Assembly: GCF_012940005.1 (NCBI RefSeq)
Contig: NZ_SPMX01000003.1
Location: 1 to 64,000 of the forward strand
DNA: 64,000 nucleotides
Reading direction: 5' to 3'
Source of the DNA: Candidatus Accumulibacter contiguus
Lineage (GTDB): Bacteria > Pseudomonadota > Gammaproteobacteria > Burkholderiales > Rhodocyclaceae
How positions within the stretch are numbered: the stretch's first letter is position 1; every line of letters begins with the position of its first letter. Below the pieces are notes generated by a model that saw only the letters and a list, made by a program, of their open reading frames with translations, had not been told where the DNA came from and did no database searches. The position numbers and the translations under genes were made by a program. Positions 38,720 through 40,338 of the stretch are shown one piece after another.

Positions 38720-38739
38720 TATTATTCCAAAGAGCGATC

Positions 38740-38759
38740 GGTGGAGCCGAAGCCCCACC
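38740..38759 (-). promoter_or_regulatory. Hairpin with UUCG tetraloop between tuf and rpsJ
   Basis: On the minus strand GGTGGGGC-TTCG-GCTCCACC forms an eight-pair stem (one G-U) closed by a very stable C(UUCG)G tetraloop. It lies 21 bases before the rpsJ start and lacks a T tract. It is more likely an RNA processing, stabilising or regulatory element than a terminator. Confidence 0.65.
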
Positions 38760-38773
38760 AGAAATGTGCCGGA

Positions 38774-39966
38774 CTACTCGATGATTTTCGCCACCACGCC
38801 GGCGCCGACGGTACGTCCTCCTTCGCGGATCGCAAAGCGCAGGCCTTCTTCCATGGCGATCGGGGCAATCAGCTTGACCGTCATCTGGACATTGTCCCCT
38901 GGCATGACCATCTCGACGCCTTCCGGCATGGCGATGGCGCCGGTCACGTCCGTCGTCCGGAAGTAGAATTGCGGACGATAGTTGTTGAAGAACGGCGTAT
39001 GACGCCCCCCCTCTTCCTTCGACAGACAGTACACCTCTCCGGTGAAATGCGTGTGCGGCTTGATCGAACCCGGCTTCGCCAGCACCTGCCCGCGCTCGAC
39101 GTCGTCACGCTTGGTGCCGCGCAGCAGCACGCCCACGTTGTCGCCGGCCTGACCCTGGTCGAGCAGTTTGCGGAACATCTCCACACCCGTGCAGATCGTC
39201 TTCACCGTCGGCTTGATGCCGACAATCTCGACTTCTTCACCCACCTTGACAACGCCCCGCTCGACACGGCCCGTCACCACCGTACCCCGACCGGAAATCG
39301 AGAACACGTCCTCGATCGGCAACAGGAAAGGTTTGTCGATCGCCCGCTGCGGCGTCGGAATGTAGGCATCCAGCGCATCCGCCAGCGCCATCACCGACTG
39401 CTCCCCCCAGCGGACCCCGTATCGCCTTCCAGCGCCTTCAGCGCCGAACCCTGGATGATCGGCGTGTCGTCTCCCGGAAAATCGTACTTGGACAGCAGTT
39501 CGCGCACTTCCATGTCGACCAGCTCCAGCAACTCGGCGTCGTCCACCATGTCGCACTTGTTCAGATACACGACAACGTACGGCACACCCACCTGACGCGC
39601 CAGCAAAATGTGCTCGCGCGTTTGCGGCATCGGGCCATCCGCCGCCGAAACCACCAGAATCGCGCCGTCCATCTGCGCCGCACCAGTAATCATGTTCTTG
39701 ATGTAGTCGGCGTGACCCGGGCAATCCACGTGCGCATAGTGACGCTTGGACGTCTCGTACTCGACGTGCGCCGTATTGATCGTGATGCCGCGCGCCTTTT
39801 CCTCGGGCGCGGCGTCGATCTGGTCGTAGGCCTTGGCAACACCGCCAAATTTCTTCGCCAGAATCGTCGTGATCGCCGCCGTCAACGTGGTCTTCCCGTG
39901 ATCGACGTGCCCAATCGTGCCGACGTTGACGTGCGGCTTCGTACGCTCAAATTTTCCCTTGGCCAT
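38774..39966 (-). CDS. tuf: Elongation factor Tu, frameshifted in a G6 run
   Basis: EF-Tu carries aminoacyl-tRNA to the ribosome as a GTP complex. The G domain is intact ([21 protein letters not shown]) and domains 2 and 3 are intact in a second frame ([23 protein letters not shown]). The frames meet at a six-G run on the minus strand (C run 39403-39408). Removing two G gives [17 protein letters not shown] and exactly 396 residues, the usual length. The gene follows tRNA-Thr as tufB does, but precedes rpsJ as tufA does. This suggests a hybrid or collapsed copy of two identical genes. Confidence 0.95.
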
Positions 39967-40015
39967 TTACCGGTCCCCAAGACGTTAGAAGTTAATAATC
40001 TACAGCACCAAGCAG

Positions 40016-40090
40016 TGGTGCCCATGGACAGAATTGAACTGTCGACCTCTCCCTTACCAAGGGAGTGCTCTACCGCTGAGCTACATGGGC
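40016..40090 (-). tRNA. tRNA-Thr (GGT)
   Basis: The minus strand begins GCCCATGTAGCTCAGCGGTA, and the anticodon arm is CTCCC-TTGGTAA-GGGAG with anticodon GGT. The T arm has GTTCAATTC, and the acceptor strand CATGGGCA ends with an encoded CCA at 40016-40018. It lies 50 bases before tuf. Confidence 0.95.
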
Positions 40091-40129
40091 ATCGCTCGAG
40101 AAGCTTGAAACATAATTTTGCGGCCAACC

Positions 40130-40203
40130 TGGAGCGGGTGAAGGGAATCGAACCCTCGTCATAAGCTTGGAAGGCTTCAGCTCTACCATTGAGCTACACC
40201 CGC
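40130..40203 (-). tRNA. tRNA-Gly (TCC)
   Basis: The minus strand begins GCGGGTGTAGCTCAATGGTA. The anticodon loop CTTCCAA has anticodon TCC. The T arm has GGTTCGATTCC, and the acceptor strand CACCCGCT is followed by an encoded CCA at 40130-40132. It is the middle of three tRNAs upstream of tuf. Confidence 0.95.
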
Positions 40204-40256
40204 AAAAGCATTGCCCGAAGAACGATTTGACAGCATCACCAACAGCGGCGTTTCTG

Positions 40257-40338
40257 TGGAGGGAGAAGGATTCGAACCTTCGAAGGCAGAGCCGTCAGAT
40301 TTACAGTCTGATCCCGTTGGCCACTTGGGTATCCCTCC
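40257..40338 (-). tRNA. tRNA-Tyr (GTA)
   Basis: The minus strand begins GGAGGGATACCCAAGTGGCC. The anticodon loop CTGTAAA has anticodon GTA, a long variable arm follows, and the T arm has GGTTCGAATCC. The sequence after the discriminator is CAG rather than CCA, so the CCA end must be added by the nucleotidyltransferase, unlike the two neighbouring tRNAs. Confidence 0.94.

Follow-up and report, generated by a model that had tools for sequence, protein, structure and literature searches.

A likely assembly collapse of two near-identical tuf genes behind the tuf-rpsJ junction in a draft genome of Candidatus Accumulibacter contiguus

The stretch of DNA analyzed here (the window; 64,000 bases, positions 1-64,000 of contig C63, which comprises 135,799 bases) raises the question of why a single tuf gene should connect tRNA genes belonging upstream of tufB with the S10 operon, which belongs downstream of tufA. 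The contig belongs to an assembly that totals 5,024,437 bases over 167 contigs, with completeness rated at 98.68% and contamination estimated at 1.44%. In the original prediction, this arrangement was suspected to result from the collapse of two tuf copies into one during assembly.

The tuf locus and its counterparts in relatives

The window sequence, together with ARAGORN, confirmed that the genes for tRNA-Tyr, tRNA-Gly and tRNA-Thr lead into tuf and that rpsJ follows 54 bases on (Table 1). These bases (38720-38773) separate the stop codon of tuf from the ATG of rpsJ at 38719, after which the S10 operon continues; the genes from tRNA-Trp to fusA are absent between tuf and rpsJ. In relatives, the same set of three tRNA genes lies ahead of the tuf copy with tRNA-Trp downstream. 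Two further open frames of the window (40481-42442 and 48345-49631), one of them near the tRNA genes, presumably carry motifs like those of serine/threonine protein kinases.

Table 1. Features of the tuf locus in the window (positions are those of the window).
Feature	Position	Strand	Remark
tRNA-Tyr (GTA)	40256..40338	-	ARAGORN; predicted left flank of original tufB
tRNA-Gly (TCC)	40130..40203	-	ARAGORN; predicted left flank of original tufB
tRNA-Thr (GGT)	40016..40090	-	ARAGORN; predicted left flank of original tufB
tuf	38774..39966	-	read as composite of 5' part of tufB and 3' part of tufA
tuf frame break	39397..39414	-	net gain of two bases in a G-rich run, compared with tuf of relatives
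tuf stretch repeated at start of contig C124	38774..39250	-	3 of 477 positions different
rpsJ	38408..38719	-	first gene of the S10 operon; predicted right flank of original tufA

The order that had been expected, with tufB at one end and fusA-tufA-rpsJ at the other, was indeed present among the 27 relatives within Candidatus Accumulibacter that formed the comparison set. It was unbroken in G005 and G013, both single contigs (5.2 and 5.0 Mb), which carry the whole series tRNA-Tyr/Gly/Thr-tuf-tRNA-Trp-secE-nusG-rplK-rpoB-rpoC-rpsL-rpsG-fusA-tuf-rpsJ. The same order was found in G010 and G021, and also in G003, where each tuf was matched only in part. In eight of the 27 relatives (G001, G005, G006, G010, G011, G013, G021 and G026), two near-full tuf copies lie on one contig with their starts 16,799-16,859 bases apart. 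Thus, the stretch between the copies is missing from the window as had been claimed, but its length is 16.8 kb rather than the ∼20 kb originally given.

In the single-contig genomes G005 and G013, the two near-identical tuf copies are direct repeats that flank the secE-rpoBC-str block, in the manner of a tufA/tufB pair undergoing concerted evolution; compared with such a pair, the assembly containing the window (though not necessarily the cell) shows one tuf, with the block detached. How closely such copies can resemble each other was evident from the four relatives whose pairs were aligned: within each genome, only zero to two alignment columns differed, the last base being left out because the tufB copies of G005 and G010 had been taken one base short. 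Concerted evolution of tuf has been reported as long-lasting in 29 orders (PMC6053082).

Two relatives displayed the same junction as the window. In G007 (NZ_SPMY01000025.1, Candidatus Accumulibacter phosphatis SBR_S) and G009 (QPGA01000014.1, UW-LDO-IC), the chimeric order tRNA-Tyr/Gly/Thr-tuf-rpsJ is accompanied by a separate "island" contig that carries the genes from tRNA-Trp to fusA. These contigs (16,397 and 16,224 bases, respectively) begin within the 3' portion of tuf and end within its 5' portion; their islands are whole, whereas in the window's genome the island breaks off at a repeated element, part of it is absent, and tuf is frame-broken. In the remaining 16 relatives, taken together, tuf was in pieces, at contig ends, or present as a single copy.

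Contig C124 and genes missing from the assembly

Apart from the window, tuf DNA had one further match in the assembly, at positions 1-476 of contig C124, which correspond to tuf from position 717 on. Two of the 476 aligned positions differ from the window's tuf, an identity that the search rounds to 100%, and the stop codons differ in their third base. As the two 3' ends differ in sequence and in the genes downstream, the assembly contains two distinct tuf 3' ends. On C124 (13,156 bases), the tuf end is followed by tRNA-Trp, secE, nusG, rplK, rplA, rplJ, rplL, rpoB and rpoC (rplA, rplJ and rplL were identified by eye from their translations), and the contig carries the sole match of the assembly to RpoB (PF00562). 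The RNA polymerase genes are, thus, elsewhere in the assembly; the existence of a real deletion between the tuf copies can be dismissed because these genes and the second tuf end are both present. The contig that had been predicted, reaching from tRNA-Trp to fusA and bounded by tuf at both ends, was found in part: C124 starts in tuf and extends to rpoC, but its other end is a repeated element, and rpsL, rpsG and the str-operon fusA were not found.

This element (C124:12815-13156) is located at the very end of rpoC: the match to rpoC of G005 stops just short of that gene's end, and in the assembly a tail that the element encodes takes the place of the final rpoC residues. The last 297 bases of C124 match five other places, on five contigs, at 100% identity, some of the matches being partial. 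All six matched copies lie at contig ends and share a common left edge. A fixed string lies close to this edge, and in each copy the contig stops 199-424 bases past the beginning of this string. The element is presumably an insertion sequence; its 76-residue open frame matched no NCBIfam model. Both ends of C124, therefore, consist of repeats, and rpoB and rpoC have no unique neighbors beyond them.

In the genome of the window, neither the S12 family (PF00164, rpsL) nor the S7 family (PF00177, rpsG) had a match, each of which was detected in 13 of 14 control genomes. The rpsL-rpsG-fusA part of the block (∼3.3 kb in G005) was likewise without a match in this genome when the DNA of G005 was used for searching in two runs, the second of which included controls and matched all seven relatives chosen. 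Domain IV of EF-G (PF03764) did match once, on contig C70. This gene was considered as a displaced str-operon fusA and rejected, its surroundings (open frames read by eye) containing neither rpsL, nor rpsG, nor tuf, and the G005 DNA finding no counterpart there or elsewhere in the genome. In bacteria, rpsL, rpsG and fusA are essential; hence, rpsL, rpsG and the str-operon fusA most likely exist in the cell and were dropped from the assembly.

The frame break in tuf

The reading frame of the window's tuf stays open down to about 39397; from about 39409 on, a different frame is the open one. The break, which had been suggested to mark the merging of two copies, is real in the sequence; as a mark of merging it is unspecific, because single-copy genes of the same assembly also contain frame-changing indels. 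Compared with four relatives, rpoB has a one-base, frame-changing indel near position 8330 of C124, toward its 3' end; compared with G005 alone, rplX has a T run lengthened by a single T (near 32767 of the window), which changes its last residues. Furthermore, the tuf pairs of all four relatives aligned are identical at the site of the break, and the second copy of the window's genome, starting at tuf position 717, does not include it. As proof of merged copies, the frameshift is, therefore, unsupported. It may stem from merging, or one of the tuf copies may truly be frameshifted; a general tendency toward base-level errors would, judging from these sequences, explain the breaks in tuf, rpoB and rplX together.

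A scan for matches distributed over more than one frame returned seven of 33 rows for the window and one of eight for C124, the latter being rpoB. The seven window rows comprise three of the same tuf gene, two of the frame running from tuf into rpsJ, one over the tRNA genes and one on the minus strand (26321-26960). Among the controls, such rows numbered 0/16 in G013, 1/17 in G021, 0/18 in G010 and 1/14 in G003; of the two genomes scanned with two stretches each, G009 yielded 0/8 and 0/9, and G007 yielded 1/7 and 4/10. In the stretches of G007 (L049 and L050), nusG and an open frame after rpsJ are frame-changed compared with G005, perhaps through base-level errors of that draft.

Origin of the junction

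Considering the sequences at hand, the odd gene order is almost certainly an artefact of assembly, caused by repeat collapse at two near-identical tuf genes. The content of C124, the second tuf 3' end, the genes missing from the assembly, the near-identity of tuf pairs in relatives, the order in G005 and G013, and the chimeras of G007 and G009 all support that the two copies collapsed, as had been proposed. The part of the intervening stretch that is present has a contig of its own, one end of which lies inside tuf and the other inside a second repeat. The chromosome most likely reads tRNA-Tyr/Gly/Thr-tufB-tRNA-Trp-secE-nusG-rplKAJL-rpoBC-(repeated element)-rpsL-rpsG-fusA-tufA-rpsJ. Given the near-identity of the two tuf genes, the assembler would have connected the sequence left of tufB with that right of tufA by way of a single composite tuf; a read that does not span the whole gene presumably cannot distinguish the copies. 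The joining would have orphaned the stretch in between, and this orphan would have been split a second time where the repeated element adjoins the end of rpoC. C124 would be its left piece; the right piece, which corresponds to the ∼3.3 kb of G005 together with the 5' portion of tufA, would be what is absent from the assembly. In the cell, rpsL to tufA would follow the repeated element; as this part of the island is absent, the relatives serve as the model for how rpoC connects to rpsJ.

Alternatively, the junction might truly be chromosomal: with tuf or the repeated element as the site of recombination, the rpoBC block would have moved elsewhere in this lineage, splitting an array that the single-contig relatives examined keep whole. 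A repeated element does sit at the end of rpoC, which permits such an event in principle, and segmental duplication and transposon-directed recombination are reported to drive the rearrangement of this operon cluster in other bacteria (PMC8046335). Despite this precedent, a rearrangement is very improbable: C124 ends in tuf on one side and in the repeated element on the other, with no unique sequence beyond them, and nothing thus places it elsewhere in the chromosome; a move would leave the total absence of rpsL, rpsG and the str-operon fusA unexplained; and in G007 and G009 the chimera is paired with an island contig that has tuf at both of its ends.

The chance that C124 stems from another strain or species in the sample, the RNA polymerase genes of the window's organism being elsewhere or unassembled, is slighter still. 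The estimated contamination of the assembly would leave room for a foreign contig, but the tuf end of C124 is identical to that of the window at 474 of 477 positions, compared with 94% identity for the best of the relatives searched; the element at its other end is identical to copies on five other contigs of the assembly; and it carries the only RpoB match.

Breaks at tuf were also counted in other assemblies. A scan for rplC confirmed at least 458 relatives, of which the best 80 loci (some of them from the same genome) were analyzed. In 30 of these best 80, fusA-tuf-rpsJ was intact; in 37, the sequence ended in or at tuf; in eight, it ended within ∼140 bases before rpsJ with tuf unmatched. 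Two loci were chimeras, namely those of G007 and G009 again, two had no rpsJ in the locus, and in one, N filled the sequence as far as the final portion of tuf. These tallies indicate that breakage at the tuf repeat is ordinary behavior of draft assemblies. Five plasmid records with tuf, at 72-76% identity, were of no help for this question. Among the papers listed in a literature search, none dealt with tuf collapse, which does not preclude that one exists.

The neighborhood of tuf in draft genomes can, thus, mislead about both gene order and gene content: rpoBC may seem displaced, and rpsL, rpsG and fusA can vanish even from an assembly rated as nearly complete as the present one. The same false-looking junction is found in two other deposited draft genomes.
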